Shown here: positions 3,299 to 36,667 of the stretch, one piece after another | How positions within the stretch are numbered: the first letter of the stretch is position 1 | Layout: every line of letters starts with the position of its first letter | DNA from: a virus | Virus record (IMG/VR): IMGVR_UViG_3300036830_000285 | Coordinates: 1 to 36,667 of that record | Reading direction: 5' to 3' (one strand) | Length of the DNA: 36,667 nt | Program-made: the position numbers and the translations under genes | Notes under the pieces: generated by a model | Seen by the model: only the letters and a program-made list of their open reading frames with translations | The model's database searches: none | Told to the model about the DNA's origin: nothing

Positions 3299-6200
3299 AT
3301 GACGTTCCCCACCATCCCTACTGGCGGACGAGTTCTTACTAATGTTCAGGCTAATACAACGGCGACCCGTACTTTCCCGAACCTTTCTGGTCTGACCAAA
3401 AGTTCTGGTGATTTGCTGATCGCAATTTGTATTGTTTACCAGTCTAGTGCTTCAGGCGGAGCTGTATTTTCTGGCTGGAGTGCTGGCTGGACTGAGTTCG
3501 GTGATCTGGGCGGAACTACGTCCAACATGTCAATTGGCATGGCGTACAAATGGTCGACAGGATCTGAGACGGGCACGATCGCTGTTACACAGGCTGCGAC
3601 TATAACAGGTGCAGCTACGATGATGCTTTTGTCGATCCCAGGAGCACACGCGACTACTCCACCAGAGCACACTGCAATTGCTAATGATACGTCTTCAGCA
3701 GCAAACCCTGCAGCATTGGTGCCTTCTTGGGGCGTAGACGATACATTGTGGATAGCAGTTGGCGGAAGTGGCCGTACTTCTACTTCAGGTACATTTACTG
3801 GTCTTACTGCTGCACCAACGAATTACTCAAACCTTGCTTCTACTGGAAGTAGTGGCGGAGGTATAGTAGGCGACACGTGGGGTGCTGCTGCGTTCCGGCA
3901 AAACAATACTGCATCAGAAGACGTTGCCACGTTTACTTGCGATACGATCAACGCAAGAAACTCTGCAGTGGTCATAGCGGTCAGGCCAGTTCAGAAGAGT
4001 GAGTTTAAGAATAGCTGTACTGGAACTAACGCAGCTACTGTAACGACTGCCAATACAGGCGGGCCAGACCAGTTTGCCGAAGCGAATGTTTCAGGAGCGG
4101 GTTCTTCTCTTGCTTTCTCGAACAGTCATGCGTTCAACGGGAAAGCTACGAGCATACATGCGGTAGGTGGTGCGAGCGTTGCTTACTGCGCCTGGCATGT
4201 AGCACCAACAGACGGATATTCTGATGCTTACATCTACATGGCGTCACCGCCAACAGCCCTTGCAAGGATTATGGCGTGGGATGACAATAGCACGTTTACC
4301 ATGTGCTGTGGTGCGTATGTGGACACGTCGGGTCATATAGTGGTCCTGGATTCCACGTTCACAGGTCTTGCCACGTCGACAACGGTTATTACAGGTGCAG
4401 ACGTAAGACTTGAGTTTGACTTCGTGGGTAATGCTACCACTGGAAGTTTCTCACTCAAAATCTACACGAACCCTGAATCTGGTACACCAGCAGAAACTCT
4501 CAGCGGAACCAATGTCAATACTCATGGTGCTGCGGATCAGTTCTGGATTGGTGCTTCGGACTTTGGTTCTACAGGCAGTGATCTGTACTTCGGTGATGTG
4601 GCCGTTAGTGCAATCGGCGCAATTCCTCCTGTTCTTGTTACAGGTACTGGCTCAGTTCGTATGCACAAGATGGGCCTATCTGGAACTGGTCATGAGAAAC
4701 TTGTAGCCACAGGCTCAGTGCGAATGCACAAGATGGGTCTGAGCGGAACAGGTCACGAGAAGCTTGTAGCTACAGGCTCAGTGCGTATGCACAAGATGGG
4801 CCTTGCTGGGTCTGGAACTGTAAGTTCAATGGTTACAGGTACAGGCTCAGTGCGAATGCACAAGATGGGCCTGTCTGGATCGGGTATCGCGTACATTGGT
4901 TCTGGTTCAGTACGCATGCACAAAATGGGTATCGCTATTACAGGCGTTCTTCACGCCCCAGATCTCTGGAACAATTTCTCGGGTTTGACTAATGGTACGA
5001 CGCTTACGACTGGTAATACTGGCGGAGTATCTGGAAGAAAGTTCGACTCAATTACCATTCCATCTGGTGCAACTCTTGCTGCCGACAATACGCATCTTGG
5101 TTTGGATGCTATGGCATTGAAGGTAGCAACGACTACAACTACAGGCGTTGTTACAGCTACGTGGTCATTGGCCGCATCGCTTAGCTATACCAGAACCAAG
5201 ATGTATTTCCGTGCTGACTGTCTCAAGACTGCTGCAGCGACACCAACGCTCAGGCCGTTTGCGTTCAGGAATGCTGCGGGTGTGCACGTCTTCTCACCAC
5301 TAGTCACAGGTAACACAGTTCAGTTTTCTACAGGCTCAGGTTTCGTCGGAAGCGGAAACATATTTACTGGTTCAATAGCCAACAATCAGTATTTCAGGAT
5401 TGAAGGTTACATCGATACTGTCGCAGGAACAGCTCATATGGAACTGTACCTGAATCAGACAGATGCCGTTCCTTCGCAAGTGGCTGATGTTTCCGGTCTT
5501 TCTTTCGGCGACGTTATCGGAAGTATTTCTGTTGGAAATAACAACAGTGCTACAAGCGACGGTCCGTTCTGGATCGATGTAGTAGGTTTCTCTGAGAATG
5601 GACCTCTCAGTCCTGCTTCGGTGCGCATGCACAAGATGGGCTTGTCTGGATCTGGGTATGAGAAGATCACAGGCACCGGTTCAGTGCGAATGCACAAAAT
5701 GGGTATCTCTGCAACTGGTCATGCACCACTGTTCGGTTCAGGTTCCATCGCGATGCACAAGATGGGCTTGTCTGGATCTGGTTTCGAGAAGCTCACAGCA
5801 ACTGGCTCAGTTCGCATGCACAAAATGGGCTTGTCTGGAATCGCTTCAGCGCCATTGTTCGGCTCAGGTTCCATCGCGATGCACAAGATGGGTTTGTCTG
5901 GATCTGGTTTTGAGAAGCTTTCAGGCACAGGTTCAGTGCGCATGCACAAGATGGGCCTGTCTGGTATCGCCACAGCTCCTTTGTACGGCACTGGTTCCGT
6001 TTCCATGCACAAGATGGGCCTTTCTGGAACAAGTGAAGTAACTGTTCCTGGTACAGGTTCAGTAGCAATGCACAAGATGGGTCTGTCTGGAACCGGTACA
6101 GCTCCTTTGCTTGGCTCAGGTTCAGTTGCCATGCACAAGATGGGTTTGTCTGGGACGGGACAAGAGATAGTCTCAGGCACAGGCTCAATAGCGATGCACA

Positions 6201-6781
6201 AGATGAGCTTGTCTGGAACTGGTACGGCTCCTCTGCTTGGCACAGGTTCAATAGCCATGCACAAGATGGGCCTGGATGGATTCGGAACTGTCGGTTCGAT
6301 CATTGCAGGTTTCGGTTCTGTTCGAATGAACAAGATGGGCTTGTCTGGAACCGGAACAGCTCCTCTGCTTGGTTCTGGCTCAGTGCGCATGCACAAGATG
6401 GGTCTGTCTGGATCTGGTGTCGCGGAACTCACGGCTACAGGTTCTGTTCGTATGCACAAGATGGGCTTGTCTGGAACTGGACATGAGAAGCTCACAGCCA
6501 CAGGCTCAGTGCGTATGCACAAAATGAGCTTGTCTGGATCTGGCTTTGTTCCTTCTGTTTCTGGATCAGGTTCAGTAGCTCTTCACAAGATGAGTTTGTC
6601 TGGTTCAGGAATTGAGATCATCAGAAGTACTGGCTCAGTTCGCATGCACAAGATGGGCTTGTCTGGATCTGGACATCTGATAGTTTCGGGCACTGGTTCA
6701 GTGTCAATGCACAAGATGCGTCTTCACGGTCAGCAAGGCCGTATGAAGGCCTCGAATCTGTTCATATTTACGCCCGTCTGA
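3299..6781 (+). CDS. large tail fibre or adhesin with 23 MHKM repeats and lectin-like domains
   Basis: This 1160-residue protein starts after GGGAGG. Residues 1-230 form a phage beta-structural domain (GWSAGWTEF, AYKWSTGSETGTI). Residues about 233-440 are a concanavalin-like beta sandwich. Residues about 448-552 hold five repeats with the core GSVRMHKMGLSG. Residues about 555-772 are a second beta sandwich related to the first. Residues about 773-1147 hold 18 more repeats, then a short tail ending FIFTPV. The repeat period is mostly 21 residues (63 bp). The repeats would suit a long beta-rich shaft with a His ladder. No chaperone or peptidase domain is visible. It precedes terminase, away from the main fibre cluster. 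Likely role: host binding or head/tail surface fibre; the exact site on the virion is unknown. Confidence 0.75.
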   Translation: MTFPTIPTGGRVLTNVQANTTATRTFPNLSGLTKSSGDLLIAICIVYQSSASGGAVFSGWSAGWTEFGDLGGTTSNMSIGMAYKWSTGSETGTIAVTQAATITGAATMMLLSIPGAHATTPPEHTAIANDTSSAANPAALVPSWGVDDTLWIAVGGSGRTSTSGTFTGLTAAPTNYSNLASTGSSGGGIVGDTWGAAAFRQNNTASEDVATFTCDTINARNSAVVIAVRPVQKSEFKNSCTGTNAATVTTANTGGPDQFAEANVSGAGSSLAFSNSHAFNGKATSIHAVGGASVAYCAWHVAPTDGYSDAYIYMASPPTALARIMAWDDNSTFTMCCGAYVDTSGHIVVLDSTFTGLATSTTVITGADVRLEFDFVGNATTGSFSLKIYTNPESGTPAETLSGTNVNTHGAADQFWIGASDFGSTGSDLYFGDVAVSAIGAIPPVLVTGTGSVRMHKMGLSGTGHEKLVATGSVRMHKMGLSGTGHEKLVATGSVRMHKMGLAGSGTVSSMVTGTGSVRMHKMGLSGSGIAYIGSGSVRMHKMGIAITGVLHAPDLWNNFSGLTNGTTLTTGNTGGVSGRKFDSITIPSGATLAADNTHLGLDAMALKVATTTTTGVVTATWSLAASLSYTRTKMYFRADCLKTAAATPTLRPFAFRNAAGVHVFSPLVTGNTVQFSTGSGFVGSGNIFTGSIANNQYFRIEGYIDTVAGTAHMELYLNQTDAVPSQVADVSGLSFGDVIGSISVGNNNSATSDGPFWIDVVGFSENGPLSPASVRMHKMGLSGSGYEKITGTGSVRMHKMGISATGHAPLFGSGSIAMHKMGLSGSGFEKLTATGSVRMHKMGLSGIASAPLFGSGSIAMHKMGLSGSGFEKLSGTGSVRMHKMGLSGIATAPLYGTGSVSMHKMGLSGTSEVTVPGTGSVAMHKMGLSGTGTAPLLGSGSVAMHKMGLSGTGQEIVSGTGSIAMHKMSLSGTGTAPLLGTGSIAMHKMGLDGFGTVGSIIAGFGSVRMNKMGLSGTGTAPLLGSGSVRMHKMGLSGSGVAELTATGSVRMHKMGLSGTGHEKLTATGSVRMHKMSLSGSGFVPSVSGSGSVALHKMSLSGSGIEIIRSTGSVRMHKMGLSGSGHLIVSGTGSVSMHKMRLHGQQGRMKASNLFIFTPV
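4643..4945 (+). repeat. first MHKM repeat array (5 units)
   Basis: There are five in-frame units of about 60-69 bases, each encoding a variant of TGSVRMHKMGLSG plus a variable 7-10 residues. Bases encoding MHKM are nearly invariant while the linker varies. The fifth unit (MHKMGIAITG) is the most divergent and runs into the second beta-sandwich domain. Confidence 0.9.
5617..6740 (+). repeat. second MHKM repeat array (18 units)
   Basis: There are eighteen in-frame units, mostly 63 bases. Two linker types dominate: one like GSGxEKLTA and one like GTAPLLG. They alternate in the middle of the array, which suggests amplification of two-unit blocks. One unit has MNKM and another LHKM instead of MHKM. 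The last unit departs (MHKMRLHG) before the C-terminal tail. Confidence 0.9.
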
Positions 6782-14319: not shown

Positions 14320-14859
14320 ATGCTCCGGCTTAAGATTACCACTGAAGAAGGATTCAACGAGGCGAGCAACGAATTCGTCTCGTCTGACTACACAGTTCTT
14401 GAGCTGGAGCATTCGCTGGTCTCAGTGTCAAAATGGGAGTCCAAATGGGAAATTCCATTCCTGAACACAGACAGTAAGTCTGACGCACAGACACTTGACT
14501 ATGTCAGGATGATGTTTTCCGGAGACGAATTCCCAGAACACCTGATTCCAGTTCTCACAACCGAACATTACCAGCAAATCAACGACTACATCAACGCTAA
14601 GATGACGGCGACATGGTTCAGCGAGCAGCAGAATGCCCAGAGCCGTGAGATCATTACGGCAGAGCTCATCTATTACTGGATGATCGCACTAGGCATACCA
14701 TTCGAATGCCAGAGCTGGCATCTTAACCGTCTTCTGACGCTGATCAAGGTCTGTAACATCAAGAATGCACCTAAGAAGAAGCTCACTTCCGCTGATGCAG
14801 CCAGACGTAACCGTGAAATCAATCAGCAACGCCGAGACCAGATGGGGAGTAAGGGATGA
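14320..14859 (+). CDS. tail assembly chaperone-like protein
   Basis: This 179-residue protein has ATG after AAGGGAGGG. Marker stretches are LELEHSLVSVSKWESKWEIPFL, the helical middle with INDYINAKMTATWF, and ELIYYWMIALGIPFECQSWHLNRLLTLIKVCN. This is a widespread phage family placed between tail tube and tape measure, where chaperones sit. The usual -1 frameshift product is not apparent: the next gene starts in an ATGA overlap and encodes a different family. The Lys/Arg/Gln-rich C-terminus ends the chain. The chaperone role is inferred from family and place. Confidence 0.65.
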   Translation: MLRLKITTEEGFNEASNEFVSSDYTVLELEHSLVSVSKWESKWEIPFLNTDSKSDAQTLDYVRMMFSGDEFPEHLIPVLTTEHYQQINDYINAKMTATWFSEQQNAQSREIITAELIYYWMIALGIPFECQSWHLNRLLTLIKVCNIKNAPKKKLTSADAARRNREINQQRRDQMGSKG

Positions 14860-16610
14860 CTAGAGTTACCTGGGACTCCCTTGGGGAGCGTCTCTATCAC
14901 ACAGGCGTAGACCGCGGCATGCTCTACATTGGCAGCAATGCTGTCCCTTGGAGCGGGCTTGCGAGCGTTACAGAAGCACCAAGCGGAGGAGAACCGCAGC
15001 CGTACTACATTGACGGAGATAAGGTTCTCAACATTCCTTCTGGAGAGGATTTCGGAGCAACGATTGAGGCCTATTCAGCGCCTCTCGAATTCGCTCCATG
15101 TGCCGGCAGGCTTTACCTATCAGAAGGTTTGTATGCGGCAGATCAGCAGAAGCAGACTTTCGGCTTCTCATACCGGACTCTCATCGGTAATGACGTGCAA
15201 GGCGTATCTCTGGGCTACAAGATTCATATTGTCTACAATGCTCTTGCACAGATCTCTGATTTCCTGCACAGCACGATGACCGATGGTCCTTCCGTGCAAA
15301 CTCGTTCGTGGGATGTGACCACGGTTCCGGTCGTATCGGCTGGATTCAGGCCAGTGGCGCATTTTGTCGTCGATACAAGGATTAATACGGCAGATCCAGT
15401 AAGCCAGCTCGAGGATATTCTGTATGGAAGTGACGATGACGATCCTCGTCTTCCTACTCTGGCTGAACTTGCAGATCTGTTCACGTACGAGGAAGTTACC
15501 TGGTGGGATCTGACGGATCTGGATGATTTTCCAGAAGGTGCTGTGGCAGGCGATGCCGGAGTCGACTTTGACTCGGATAATCTGTACACGGAAGACAGAA
15601 CGTTCCAGGCTGCTTTCTGGTGGGACCTTACTGGACTCTCAGATTTCCCAGAAGAAGCACTTATAGGCGACTGGGGAATCGATACAGATACAGGCGACGT
15701 CTTCACCAAACTCGATTACGCCATGGTTACCTGGTGGGATCTGACTGGACTCTCAGATTTCCCCGGGGGAGCTTCTGAAGGTGACCCAGGTATCGATTTC
15801 GAGTCTGACAATCTGTATGCGGACATAAGCGAGAACTCGGCCGCTTATCTGTGGGATTTGACTGGCCTGGACAACTTCCCGTACGAAGCTCCTGTGGGAG
15901 ACTGGGGAATTGACACCGCCGCAGGGTCTGTGTATGAGAAGGAAGCACCTTTCCTGTCTAATGATTTCGAAGAAGGCACTGACGGCGTCACTATGACGAC
16001 AGCCAACTCGGCTGGTACTGGCGAGAACGCTTTCGAAGTTATCACTAACCCGACTACGGGTCAGACAGTCATGTTCAAGAACGATACAGACGTGCACGGT
16101 ACCAAAGCTCTTGAAGTGGCTACTGGTGCTACCGCGTCCACTGCGTTCTTCAGGTGGACGACGTCTGTTGGCTCGCAATCAGAGCTGTGGTGCCGATTCC
16201 TCTTCAAGACAGGCTCAACTCCTGCGTCAAACACCAGAATCTGGCATGCTTATACAGCTTCTGGAGACTGTGCGTCGCTTATTCATACCACTGCGGGAAA
16301 GCTTATTTATGCCAACTCCGCGGGGACTCAGTACACAGGAATGATCACAGACGCAGCTCTTGCCCTGAACACGTACATCAGAATCGAGCTCTATATCAAG
16401 GGAGATGCGACTACAGGAGCTGTCGGATGGAGAATCTATCTCGATCCTGAAGGTCTCGCTCCAGATGATGTGAAGTTCGCACCGGACGTCAATACCACGG
16501 GTCTGGTAGCTAAGGTAGAAGGCGGAAACGCCGGTGCAACCAAGTCAAACAGTGGCCCCTGGAGGTTCAAGGACTTCGCGGTCGGAATTCACGGCTATCT
16601 CGGCCCTTAG
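14856..16610 (+). CDS. second tail-tube paralogue with four GDxGID repeats and a lectin-like domain
   Basis: This 584-residue protein starts in the ATGA overlap. Residues 1-205 share the tube domain with the genes at 13430 and 16619 (GVDRGMLYI, WSGLASVTE, FGFSYRT, KIHIVYNALAQ, SWDVTTVPV, ILYG). Residues about 215-363 are four repeats of about 38 residues (WWDLTGLSDFP, GDxGID, then DNLY or GDVF/GSVY). Residues about 366-584 are a concanavalin-like beta sandwich like those of the fibre at 3299. I infer a specialised tail ring or minor tube protein that carries a sugar- or wall-binding module on the tail surface. Confidence 0.75.
   Translation: MTRVTWDSLGERLYHTGVDRGMLYIGSNAVPWSGLASVTEAPSGGEPQPYYIDGDKVLNIPSGEDFGATIEAYSAPLEFAPCAGRLYLSEGLYAADQQKQTFGFSYRTLIGNDVQGVSLGYKIHIVYNALAQISDFLHSTMTDGPSVQTRSWDVTTVPVVSAGFRPVAHFVVDTRINTADPVSQLEDILYGSDDDDPRLPTLAELADLFTYEEVTWWDLTDLDDFPEGAVAGDAGVDFDSDNLYTEDRTFQAAFWWDLTGLSDFPEEALIGDWGIDTDTGDVFTKLDYAMVTWWDLTGLSDFPGGASEGDPGIDFESDNLYADISENSAAYLWDLTGLDNFPYEAPVGDWGIDTAAGSVYEKEAPFLSNDFEEGTDGVTMTTANSAGTGENAFEVITNPTTGQTVMFKNDTDVHGTKALEVATGATASTAFFRWTTSVGSQSELWCRFLFKTGSTPASNTRIWHAYTASGDCASLIHTTAGKLIYANSAGTQYTGMITDAALALNTYIRIELYIKGDATTGAVGWRIYLDPEGLAPDDVKFAPDVNTTGLVAKVEGGNAGATKSNSGPWRFKDFAVGIHGYLGP
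15501..15945 (+). repeat. four WDLTGLxDFP protein repeats
   Basis: There are four in-frame units of about 111-117 bases. Odd units end in a DSDNLY-type segment and even units in GDWGIDTDTGDVF-type. The array therefore looks like a duplicated pair. GDxGID and DTGxVY motifs recur in phage fibre shafts. Confidence 0.8.
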
Positions 16611-27436: not shown

Positions 27437-27465
27437 CTCGCAGGAAAAACACGTCATATAGTGAA
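27437..27465 (+). promoter_or_regulatory. conserved promoter-like motif, copy 1
   Basis: CTCGCAGGAAAAACA (27437-27451), five bases, then TATAGT (27457-27462) and GAA. The same layout occurs at 27881 and 29115. TGACTC at 27434-27439, 17 bases before the -10, could be a weak -35. It would drive the gene at 27486. Confidence 0.65.
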
Positions 27466-27485
27466 AGTCAACAGAGAGGACTGAC

Positions 27486-27880: not shown

Positions 27881-27909
27881 CTCGCAGGAATTACAAGCCC
27901 TATAATGAA
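27881..27909 (+). promoter_or_regulatory. conserved promoter-like motif, copy 2
   Basis: CTCGCAGGAATTACA (27881-27895), five bases, TATAAT (27901-27906) then GAA. It is directly downstream of the terminator and 33 bases before the ATG at 27939. The -35 region (TTCCTC) is far from TTGACA, so recognition may depend on the conserved block. Confidence 0.72.
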
Positions 27910-27938
27910 CCCGATCACCGTGTTTTAGGAGAGGCATC

Positions 27939-28966: not shown

Positions 28967-29183
28967 CTGGATCAGGAAACTCTTCCCGCATCTCGGTCAC
29001 TTCCTGTTCTGGGTCATGTGGCCATATGTCGTATCAAGAACGACGCGTCTTGCCTGTTTCCAGTTCACGGGCAAGATGATGCCTAAATCCGATGTAGTTC
29101 AGATGAGGAAGGAGCTCGCAGGAATTACACGGACTATAATGAACCCCGATTCGCCATCAGGCGAGTCTAAGATCACGAGATAA
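28929..29183 (+). CDS. small basic protein with a hydrophobic segment
   Basis: Reading from ATG 28929 gives 84 residues; the frame is open further upstream but that part is a shadow of the previous gene. It has basic residues and a hydrophobic stretch (LGHFLFWVMWPYVV), then a soluble tail with VVQMRKELAGITRTIMNPDS. The ribosome site is weak and 38 bases overlap the gene before. The promoter-like motif copy 3 lies inside its 3' end. It is plausible as a phage small membrane protein but not certain. Confidence 0.5.
   Translation: MRVFQGVITASSSWIRKLFPHLGHFLFWVMWPYVVSRTTRLACFQFTGKMMPKSDVVQMRKELAGITRTIMNPDSPSGESKITR
29115..29143 (+). promoter_or_regulatory. conserved promoter-like motif, copy 3
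   Basis: CTCGCAGGAATTACA (29115-29129), five bases, TATAAT (29135-29140), GAA. It matches copy 2 at all 15 bases of the block and the -10. It lies in the end of the gene at 28929 and 97 bases before the ATG at 29237. Confidence 0.7.
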
Positions 29184-31906: not shown

Positions 31907-32776
31907 ATGAACTCACCAAGATTCGCAACCCGGGCCGTCGGCTCAACGAAGTTCTTCCTCAACAAGAACGGCCCCACGATCCTGACTGGTGCCGGCGTGG
32001 TGGGTTTCGTCGCAACCACCGCTCTGACCGTCATCGCCACAAGGAAAGCTGAGCTGAAGTTCGCCGAGGCCGAAGGCAAGATCAAGCAAGCCAGAATCAT
32101 CTCTACGATCGAAGAAGATGACGACCGGCAGAAGGCTCAGCGCCTGGTCAAGGCCTATGCCGAAGGCGGCATGATCCTTGCAAGGACCTATGCTCCGCCG
32201 CTCATCATCGGCTCGGCTTCCATCGTCTGCATCCTGAGCGCTCACGGCATGATGCTTAAGCGCCAGGCAAGCCTGCTGGCCGCCTACACGGCCCTGGACG
32301 CCGGCTACAAGGCCTACCGCAAGCGTGTGGTGGAGAAGATCGGGGAGGAGGAAGAGGAGGCTCTGTACCGCAATGTGCGGGCCATAGAGAGCTTCAATGA
32401 GCTGGGGGAGGCTTGTGAGATCATCGATCCCGCCAATATCCCGCCATCGCCGTACGCCAGGTTCTTCGACGAAGCCAGCAGAAACTGGACGAAGACCCCG
32501 GAGTACAACCTGCTCTTTCTTCGCAGTCAGCAGGACTGGGCTAATGACCGCCTGCGAGCATATGGATATGTCTTCCTGAACGAGGTCTATGAGGCGCTGG
32601 GCCTGGAACGTTCTCAGGCCGGCCAGATCGTGGGCTGGAAGCTCAAAGGAGACGGAGACGGGTTCGTCGACTTCGGACTCTATTCGATCGGGGACGAGGG
32701 AAACCGTGCGTTCGTGAATCTCATCGAGCACACTGTTCTCCTCGACTTCAACGTCGACGGCCCGATAAGGATCTGA
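31907..32776 (+). CDS. DUF6353-like membrane protein, paralogue of the gene at 28184
   Basis: This 289-residue protein has ATG after AAGAGAG. Matching blocks to the gene at 28184: PTILTGAGVVGFVATTAL, IATRKAELK, YAPPLIIGSASIVCILSAHG and RQASLLAAYTALDAGYKAYRKRVVEKIG. Two membrane segments are conserved. The C-terminal region (LLFLRSQQDWANDRLRAYG, GLERSQAGQIVGWKLKGDG) is related in plan but has diverged and is longer. The function is unknown. It lies in a three-gene run with 32778 and 33521. Confidence 0.7.
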   Translation: MNSPRFATRAVGSTKFFLNKNGPTILTGAGVVGFVATTALTVIATRKAELKFAEAEGKIKQARIISTIEEDDDRQKAQRLVKAYAEGGMILARTYAPPLIIGSASIVCILSAHGMMLKRQASLLAAYTALDAGYKAYRKRVVEKIGEEEEEALYRNVRAIESFNELGEACEIIDPANIPPSPYARFFDEASRNWTKTPEYNLLFLRSQQDWANDRLRAYGYVFLNEVYEALGLERSQAGQIVGWKLKGDGDGFVDFGLYSIGDEGNRAFVNLIEHTVLLDFNVDGPIRI

Positions 32777-32777
32777 T

Positions 32778-33521
32778 ATGAGAGGGATGAGGATAGATGT
32801 CATGTCTATGGTGGGTGGTGCTCTGGTCGGCTTTGGCGTCGGTGGGTTTGCTGGTTACCAGTATGCTCGCATCGTGCTGGAGCAAAGACTCGCAGCCCGT
32901 CTCGACGACGAAGTCGCTGCCGTCAAGGCCTATTATTCAAAACGAGCCGCCGAGGCCAGAGCTGATTTTGTGGCCAGCCAAGGTGATCACGGAGTCCAGT
33001 GGACACCCGCCGTGGCAGACCAGTCCGGGATTGTGGTCGATTCCCTCAGAATCACTGACGACATCCCGACCGCAGCCGATCCTGATGGCGTCGAGTCTCC
33101 AGGAGGTGATGACGCAGACGGACTGGCTGGAGGAGAGCAGCTGGACGTGGGGGATGACAATGCTGGACCGCCTGCGCTCGAAAAGTCTGGAGACGTGAAC
33201 ATTACGCCGCGAGACACCAGCAAGCCGTACGCCATTTCGGCCCAAGAATTCGGCGAATCAGAGCCAGGCACTCAGCAGCTCACCATTACGTACTATGCTG
33301 GTGACAAAGTGCTGACCGACGATAAGGATCTGCCCATCAGGGATGTCATCAAGACGGTCGGGCCCTTGTCAGCTCTGAGCTTCGGCGGAATCTCAGAAGA
33401 TCCCCATGTCCGGTACGTCAGGAACGAGGAGCTCGAGATCGACTTCGAGATCATCCTGAGTGCCCAATCGTACGCAGAAGCAGTCCTCAATTACGGGAAT
33501 CCTTCCGGAAAGGGGACTTGA
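32778..33521 (+). CDS. membrane-anchored protein with conserved C-terminal domain
   Basis: This 247-residue protein starts one base after the previous stop. Residues about 10-30 form one membrane helix (GGALVGFGVGGFAGYQYA). A coiled-coil-like helix (EQRLAARLDDEVAAVKAYYSKR) follows, then a long acidic linker to about residue 148. The C-terminal domain contains PYAISAQEFGES, LTITYYAGDKVLTDDKDLPI and VRYVRNEELEIDFEI, a pattern repeated in many actinophage proteins. The function is unknown. The partner genes on either side suggest a membrane complex. Confidence 0.7.
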   Translation: MRGMRIDVMSMVGGALVGFGVGGFAGYQYARIVLEQRLAARLDDEVAAVKAYYSKRAAEARADFVASQGDHGVQWTPAVADQSGIVVDSLRITDDIPTAADPDGVESPGGDDADGLAGGEQLDVGDDNAGPPALEKSGDVNITPRDTSKPYAISAQEFGESEPGTQQLTITYYAGDKVLTDDKDLPIRDVIKTVGPLSALSFGGISEDPHVRYVRNEELEIDFEIILSAQSYAEAVLNYGNPSGKGT

Positions 33522-34051
33522 TGTCTGAAAGCCGGCTGCCCGGATTGTATTTCATCTGGCTTTACAAGCAGGTGTGTACAATCCGGGATGTCGACTCGCC
33601 ACACAGTTATGTACAGCTATGTCAGATCATGGACGAAATACCGTTCAGGATCCTGGTTCCAATGGATGAAAACCGGGCCGCCGATGGCTTTGAGCTCCGT
33701 AATGCATTCATGAAGAACCGGTCTGGTGAGCTATTCGAGAGAGAAGTAAGCATCTTCGAGGTCCTGGTCGGCCTGGCAAAGAGAGCAAGCGTCATGGTCG
33801 ATCAGGACATGAAGATGTGGTTTAGCATATTCCTTGCCAATCTCAAGATAGACCACCATTCCGATCCCTGTCTCAACTCAGCTTCGTGTGTAAGGCGAGT
33901 CGAAAGAATACTGTACAGGTTCAACAACCGGAGATACACGGCAAGAGGAACTGGAGGCTTGTTCCCGCTGACGCGCCCAATCGTAGATCAGAGACGAGTA
34001 GAGCTCTGGTACCAGATGGGCGCATACATGAATGAAAACCGTCTCTATTAA
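33521..34051 (+). CDS. conserved phage protein of unknown function
   Basis: This 176-residue protein starts at ATG 33521, sharing a base with the stop before it; a TTG three bases earlier is possible. It contains VPMDENRAADGFELRNAF, IFEVLVGLAKRASVMV, KMWFSIFLANL and GGLFPLTRPIVDQRRVELWYQMGAYMN. This compact helical family occurs widely in actinophages beside the membrane-protein family at 32778. No motif gives a function. Confidence 0.7.
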   Translation: MSESRLPGLYFIWLYKQVCTIRDVDSPHSYVQLCQIMDEIPFRILVPMDENRAADGFELRNAFMKNRSGELFEREVSIFEVLVGLAKRASVMVDQDMKMWFSIFLANLKIDHHSDPCLNSASCVRRVERILYRFNNRRYTARGTGGLFPLTRPIVDQRRVELWYQMGAYMNENRLY

Positions 34052-34272: not shown

Positions 34273-36667
34273 ATGGATTTCTATCAGGTCAGGGAGCGAG
34301 AGACGAAGACCGGAACTGAGATTTACCCGGACTTCATCGTCCGCCCGTCAAAGGACCTGATGATTCGTGGCGGTTCCTTCTATGCGGTGTGGGACGAGGA
34401 AGCTGGACTGTGGTCAGTAGATGAGTACGACGTCCAGCGCCTTGTCGATGCTGATCTGTACGCTCACGCGGATAAGCTTGAGGGACCTGTGCACGTGAAG
34501 TCTCTCAGCAGCTATAAGAGTAATGTATGGAAGGTCTTCAAAAGCTATGCTGGTAATCTTCCAAGTTCTCATCAGCAGCTAGACGGAGTCCTGGCATTCG
34601 CAAACACATCGCCGAAGAAAGGAGATTACTGCACAAGGCGTCTTCCTTATTCTCTGGAAGCAGGTACTGCAGACGCTTATGACAAGATGATGGGTAAGCT
34701 ATATGCTCCTGAAGAGAGAGAAAAACTCGAATGGGCAATCGGCGCAATCTTGTCAGGAGACTCAAGAAAGATTCAGAAGTTCTTTGTGCTGTATGGAGAA
34801 GCCGGAACAGGAAAGTCGACCTTTCTTGACATTCTGAAAATGCTTTTCGAAGGATATACAGCCGTATTCGATGCGAAAGCGCTGACTGGATCAAGCAACG
34901 CGTTTGCATCTGAGTCGTTCAAGAATAATCCTCTTGTGGCAATTCAGCATGATGGAGATCTCTCAAAGATCGAGGACAATACTCAGCTCAACTCGATTGT
35001 TTCTCACGAAGAGATCATCATCAATGAGAAATACAAATCACCATACCAGGGAAGAATCAATGCGCTTCTCTTTATCGGCTCAAATCAGTCAGTCAGAATC
35101 ACAGACGCTAAGTCAGGTCTTATCAGAAGACTGATTGATGTTCATCCTACTGGCGACACTTTGCCTGTGGATGAATACGATGCCGCAAAGCACAGTATTA
35201 TGTTTGAACTCGGCTCAATTGCGCACAGGTGTCTTGCTCTGTACAGAAGCAAAGGACCAAATTATTATTCTCGTTACAGGCCAACGGACATGATTGTCAG
35301 GACCGATGTGTTCTACAACTTCCTTGTGACGAATTATGAGTTGTTCAAGGAACAAGACGGAACTACTCTTAAGCAGGCCTGGACGCTCTACAAAAACTTC
35401 TGTGATGATGGAGGATACGACTGGAAGCTCAACCTTGGCAGGTTCAGGGATGAGCTGAGGAATTACTTTGCTCACTTTTCAGAAAGAGGAAGAGTCGACG
35501 GCGTTCAGGTATCCAGTTTGTTTACTGGTTTCAAAACTGAAAAGCTGTCAATACTCCCCCCGCCTGAAGAAACATCACCTTCCCTTGTAATGGAGAACAA
35601 GGAATCTCTCTTCGATGCTTTGTTTGCTGAGGCTCCAGCTCAGTATGCAAGGGACGACGGTAAGCCAGGAATACCGTGGGCTAAAGTCAAGACCAAACTT
35701 AGTGATCTTGATACGTCAAAACTGCACTACGTCAAGCCAGGCAGGAAACTCATAGTCATCGATTTCGATCTCAAAGATGACGAAGGTAATAAGAGCCTTG
35801 CTAAGAATCTCTCCGCCGCGAGTTTGTGGCCAGCAACATACGGGGAGTTCAGCCAGGGCGGGGCTGGCATTCACTTGCATTACTTTTACGAAGGAGATGA
35901 CTCAGAGCTTAGCCATGACTACAGCCTGGGCATCGAGGTCAAAACTTTCCCTGACGACGCTTCTCTTCGGCGCCGGCTGACAAACTGCAACAATGTTCCT
36001 ATCGCGACAATCAGAAGTGGATTGCCGTACAAGGAGAGGAAAGTGCTTGATTCCGACACGATGAAAAGTGAGCGCGCACTGCGTGATCTGATCTTGCGGA
36101 ACCTGAGAAAGGAAATTCATCCCGGAACGAAGTCTAGTATTGACTTCATCTGGAAGATCCTTGAGGATGCATGGAATTCCGGGATGGCATATGACGTTAC
36201 CGACTTGCGCGGAAGGATACTGGCATTCGCCAACGGATCCACCAACCATTCGGTTTACTGCGTCAAGCTCGTCATGTCGATGCAGTTCGCATCTGAGTCG
36301 GAAAAGCCTGAATCAGCTGAGGCTGAGGATGACCGCCTGGTGTTCTATGACGTTGAGGTGTTTCCTAACCTCTTCGTAGTGTGCTGGAAGTACCAGGGTG
36401 ATGCGGACGTCGTGAAGATGATCAACCCGAAGCCGGCTGCGATTGAGGAGCTCTGCAAGACCCGCCTCGTGGGATTCAATAATCGCCGCTATGATAACCA
36501 CATTCTTTATGCCCGGATCATGGGCTACAGTGAGAAGGATCTCTTCTTGCTGAGTCAGAGGATCGTAGCGAACGAGAAAAGCACTATGTTCGGCGACGCA
36601 TATTCCTTGTCGTATGCCGACGTGTGGGACTTCTCAAGTCTCAGGCAGTCACTGAAGCGGTTCCAGA
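34273..36667 (+). CDS. giant replication protein: SF3 helicase, AEP primase, DEDD exonuclease (partial)
   Basis: ATG 34273 follows GGGAGG. The frame runs open for 798 codons to the window end without a stop. Residues about 160-330 fit an SF3 (D5-like) helicase: Walker A GEAGTGKST (175-183), Walker B HDGD (D227, D229), motif C FIGSNQ (267-272) and arginines 285-286. Residues about 480-640 fit an archaeo-eukaryotic primase: DFD (D497, D499), SQGGAGIHLHYF (S527, H534, H536) and IEV (E555). Residues about 688-798 fit a DEDD exonuclease: DVE (D693, E695) and NNRRYDN (N736-N742). A polymerase may follow beyond the window. Order is helicase before primase, the reverse of common D5-type primase-helicases. 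Confidence 0.82.
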   Translation, partial: MDFYQVRERETKTGTEIYPDFIVRPSKDLMIRGGSFYAVWDEEAGLWSVDEYDVQRLVDADLYAHADKLEGPVHVKSLSSYKSNVWKVFKSYAGNLPSSHQQLDGVLAFANTSPKKGDYCTRRLPYSLEAGTADAYDKMMGKLYAPEEREKLEWAIGAILSGDSRKIQKFFVLYGEAGTGKSTFLDILKMLFEGYTAVFDAKALTGSSNAFASESFKNNPLVAIQHDGDLSKIEDNTQLNSIVSHEEIIINEKYKSPYQGRINALLFIGSNQSVRITDAKSGLIRRLIDVHPTGDTLPVDEYDAAKHSIMFELGSIAHRCLALYRSKGPNYYSRYRPTDMIVRTDVFYNFLVTNYELFKEQDGTTLKQAWTLYKNFCDDGGYDWKLNLGRFRDELRNYFAHFSERGRVDGVQVSSLFTGFKTEKLSILPPPEETSPSLVMENKESLFDALFAEAPAQYARDDGKPGIPWAKVKTKLSDLDTSKLHYVKPGRKLIVIDFDLKDDEGNKSLAKNLSAASLWPATYGEFSQGGAGIHLHYFYEGDDSELSHDYSLGIEVKTFPDDASLRRRLTNCNNVPIATIRSGLPYKERKVLDSDTMKSERALRDLILRNLRKEIHPGTKSSIDFIWKILEDAWNSGMAYDVTDLRGRILAFANGSTNHSVYCVKLVMSMQFASESEKPESAEAEDDRLVFYDVEVFPNLFVVCWKYQGDADVVKMINPKPAAIEELCKTRLVGFNNRRYDNHILYARIMGYSEKDLFLLSQRIVANEKSTMFGDAYSLSYADVWDFSSLRQSLKRFQ

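Follow-up and report, generated by a model that had tools for sequence, protein, structure and literature searches.

The window analysed here is the whole of the public record IMGVR_UViG_3300036830_000285 (36,667 bases, classed as linear), and the open reading frame at its end very probably codes, judging from the sequence, for the N-terminal 65%, or about two-thirds, of a HelPrimPolB- or GP55-type phage replicase, the rest of which is seen in its relatives. This ORF (34273..36666, + strand) starts with ATG and runs for 798 codons without an internal stop to the end of the contig, as the original prediction of an open frame of at least 798 codons had it. Because the window is the entire linear record, the contig end truncates the replicase gene, and the expected polymerase part is missing from the record for the same reason. 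A circular record in which the gene continues at the window start was ruled out, since the record is linear, a search for a terminal repeat found none, and the frame that is open at the 5' end of the window is just 106 codons long.

The original prediction also implied that such an enzyme was new, which was not borne out. HelPrimPolB was named in 2020, when family B polymerases were surveyed, for exactly such a fusion, in which a divergent PolB carries SF3 helicase and PrimPol domains on its N-terminal side (PMC7544198). GP55 of Lactococcus phage 1706, a protein of 1317 aa, was characterised in 2025 as a 'four-in-one replicase' with more than 1000 reported homologues; the purified protein has helicase, RNA primase, DNA polymerase and 3'-5' exonuclease activities in vitro, its unwinding depends on UTP/dTTP, and its dimerisation has been shown (PMC12205980). 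The enzyme type is therefore known: it has a name, more than 250 phage genomes carry annotated copies, and GP55 has been tested biochemically.

Domains encoded in the window

Residues 1-430 (34273..35562, +) comprise an N-terminal region and an SF3 (D5-like) helicase domain, the N-terminal position this domain has in GP55-type replicases. Residues 173-286 match DUF5906/D5-like models (E = 7e-15) and include the Walker A motif GEAGTGKS (residues 175-182, 34795..34818, +), in which K181 is the counterpart of GP55 K189, a residue needed for unwinding (PMC12205980). The AlphaFold2 model of the 798-residue protein has a mean pLDDT of 86.9, and its first 420 residues resemble the SaPI5 primase-helicase and the poxvirus D5/E5 helicases, the best D5-type match giving Z 22.4 with an rmsd of 4.2 over 374 residues. 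Both lines of evidence agree with the SF3 helicase first proposed from the letters.

The helicase is followed by an AEP (PriS-like) primase module at residues 443-585 (35599..36027, +), assigned by its sequence motifs: motif I, DFD (residues 497-499, 35761-35769, +), with D499 the counterpart of GP55 D509; motif II, GGAGIHLH (35857-35880, +; GAGIHLH being residues 530-536), of the SxGxHLH type; and motif III, GIEVK, which includes E555 (35929-35943, +). All 66 sequences compared have D497, D499, H534 and E555. The AEP motifs predicted at residues 497-555 stand exactly as placed. By its profile matches the AEP domain is divergent, and it is recognised by a weak match to Pfam Prim-Pol PF09250 in 38 of the 66 members (best E 0.0017) and by better PHROG DNA primase matches in 61 of them. 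Searched by profile on its own, the AEP region hit no AEP among PDB sequences and gave chance matches only. When the window model is searched with Foldseek and VIA, the helicase region fills the match lists, so that these searches are no separate test of the AEP fold.

Between the AEP and the PolB module lies a helical domain of the GP55 aHD type (residues 598-672, 36064..36288, +), mostly helical in the predicted structure at residues 600-668, and Y640 and F652 align with GP55 Y655 and F667 and are kept in 22 of 22 aligned sequences. In GP55 the aHD is essential for priming (PMC12205980). The last segment (residues 685-798, 36325..36666, +) holds the start of the DEDD 3'-5' exonuclease that belongs to the PolB module. 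Its Exo I residues D693/E695 (36349-36357, +) are the counterparts of GP55 D712/E714, and Exo II covers residues ~734-743 (734-742 at 36472-36498, +), D741 within the motif G734-H743 being invariant; Exo III and the polymerase would lie past the contig end. The exonuclease signature predicted at residues 693-742 was thus located correctly, and its fold was confirmed within the exonuclease-polymerase model of a close relative (L005, below). The predicted series of helicase, primase and exonuclease kept its order and needed the minor correction of a helical domain (~598-672) between the last two.

Over 793 aligned residues the window protein is 38% identical to GP55, with which it shares the order helicase, PriS-like AEP, aHD and exonuclease/PolB. 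The GP55 residues found indispensable by mutation (K189, helicase; D509, primase; Y655/F667, helical domain; D712/E714, exonuclease; PMC12205980) correspond to K181, D499, Y640, F652, D693 and E695 in the window protein and are identical in all 22 aligned sequences. The two proteins differ in that the window protein is of the actinobacteriophage type, not the lactococcal one, and in length, GP55 having 1317 aa as against 1231 aa for the closest full-length relatives. As a separate observation, phage 1706 also encodes a protein of 1029 aa that bears the annotation RNA-dependent RNA polymerase (L080:32083-35172).

The missing C-terminus and competing explanations

The whole of the window ORF (residues 1-798) is matched by phrog_4210, annotated 'DNA polymerase', at 1164 bits. 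In the phage collection, 253 records, mainly from Arthrobacter, Gordonia and Streptomyces phages, match at least 80% of the query length, and therefore the architecture is not due to chance. They are annotated 'DNA primase/polymerase', a label that leaves out the helicase, and differ from the window protein in sequence only: the best is 56% identical, and proteins such as RosaAsantewaa gp39 and Gravy gp61 match the whole ORF at about 49-56% identity. Phages of Faecalibacterium, Bifidobacterium and Lactococcus carry remoter relatives that span the full query.

Scanning viral contigs yielded 78 relatives. Nearly all of those not cut by a contig end have a single ORF, and those measured from the homologous start are 1231 to 1448 aa long. 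The two closest (L005 and L006), each 92% identical to the window protein, have one uninterrupted ORF of 1231 aa, and relatives at 92, 76, 73 and 69% identity are all single ORFs of about 1231-1234 aa. The polymerase that the original prediction suspected downstream was sought in these relatives and found by both sequence and predicted structure. In NCBIfam, the C-terminal part of L005 hits models for DNA polymerase II (9e-8), and a profile built from 65 relatives, when run against the PDB, picks up E. coli DNA polymerase II (1.3e-7). Most of the AlphaFold2 model of L005 residues 676-1231 (mean pLDDT 92.7) aligns with family B polymerases, both in Foldseek (1.6e-16) and in VIA (Z 16.9, rmsd 7.1, 455 residues). 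From these NCBIfam, PDB and structural matches it follows that the polymerase of the relatives is of family B and stands after the usual DEDD exonuclease; family A was ruled out, because the C-terminus matches family B models and structures only. Every full-length relative retains the residue D949 of the GP55 polymerase, and the relatives, like the HelPrimPolB group, have a divergent motif C, which reads KTDS in each full-length sequence aligned. Since L005, L006 and nearly all other full-length relatives carry this C-terminal PolB, helicase, primase, exonuclease and polymerase are united in one chain in these proteins. The polymerase of the window protein would lie past the window end, and its chain probably continues into it as in the 92% identical relatives.

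The gene could instead end after the exonuclease and leave the polymerase to a separate polypeptide, and two relatives show exactly this arrangement. In L048 and L049 (6580-6660 in each) the ORF is closed by TAA at residue 871, after the exonuclease and ahead of the polymerase; an AAGGAG-like ribosome-binding site then precedes the ATG that opens a second ORF, in the same frame, for the polymerase (408 aa in L048; L049 has an extra frame break inside the polymerase), so that a split form does exist among these replicases. However, both share just 47% identity with the window protein, whereas the relatives at 92, 76, 73 and 69% have a single ORF, and we regard a split replicase in the window phage as very improbable. 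The position of the polymerase half outside the window, these split relatives, and the 38% identity to GP55 as the only characterised member are what can be held against the reading as a GP55-type replicase, which we still consider very likely overall. A different break occurs in L067 (5272-5317), where the helicase is coded in one frame (446 codons) and the AEP-exonuclease-polymerase part in another (916 codons), the two overlapping across an A-rich stretch; either the assembly has an indel there or this is a site of frameshifting.

The phage itself is, by sequence, related to Streptomyces phage RosaAsantewaa, the terminases being 84% identical. The contig carries intact terminase, head maturation, tail and tape measure genes, which together with an ORF free of internal stops and the retention of every catalytic residue checked makes it highly improbable that the replicase gene is a decayed or inactive relic; the truncation at the contig end is all that suggests one. 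Directly upstream of the replicase stands a set of three ORFs matching phrog_2152 (31907-32776), phrog_4695 (32778-33521) and phrog_4678 (33518..34051, +; function not assigned). In RosaAsantewaa three genes, gp36-38, precede the replicase, and their likeness to the window set is one of size and order.

Other features of the contig were noted. Between the endolysin and terminase genes, there is a 1160-aa protein (3299-6781) without a PHROG match, in which a 21-residue repeat (GSVRMHKMGLSGTG...) recurs about 23 times, interspersed with non-repeat stretches. The major tail protein ORF (14856-16610) has a C-terminal extension with repeats of about 39 residues at 114-117 nt spacing (15495-15914). 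Near-identical 32-nt repeats ending TATAATGAACCC lie at 27881-27912 and 29115-29146, with a weaker copy at 27437-27468; none are expected in shuffled sequences, and they are possibly phage promoters.

Domain order separates the window protein from the D5-type enzymes. The SaPI5 primase-helicase, poxvirus D5/E5 and NrS-1 polymerase have the SF3 helicase fold in common with it (Z 17-22), and the AEP module is also present in D5 and NrS-1. In D5-type primase-helicases, however, the primase lies N-terminal to the helicase and neither a PolB nor an exonuclease comes after them, whereas in the window protein the helicase comes before the primase, the reversal that the original prediction had pointed out. 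That a D5- or SaPI-like helicase-primase was mis-assembled onto an unrelated exonuclease, as the likeness of the helicase region to SaPI5 and D5 might suggest, is refuted by the same architecture in independent isolates of Gordonia, Arthrobacter, Streptomyces, Faecalibacterium and Lactococcus phages and can be dismissed.

Proposed function and significance

The window protein has the domain order, the catalytic residues and the membership of the GP55 group, and it would probably work as GP55 does at all steps. The SF3 helicase would unwind the DNA, and the AEP together with the helical domain would make a short RNA primer. The primer would be handed over to the family B polymerase predicted past the contig end from the relatives, which would extend it with strand displacement, and the DEDD exonuclease would proofread. 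Our literature search found no biochemistry on the actinobacteriophage branch of these replicases. This branch is about 38-40% identical to GP55, and there is a small chance that it differs in important properties, such as the nucleotide that fuels the helicase, the primer recognition site or the oligomeric state, and that lineages of the L048/L049 type use a naturally split form with the polymerase as a separate subunit.

An enzyme class that was characterised only recently was here recovered independently from raw sequence, and the window protein adds a member from the actinobacteriophage branch. The naturally split relatives provide a means to ask if fusion is needed to couple priming and extension.
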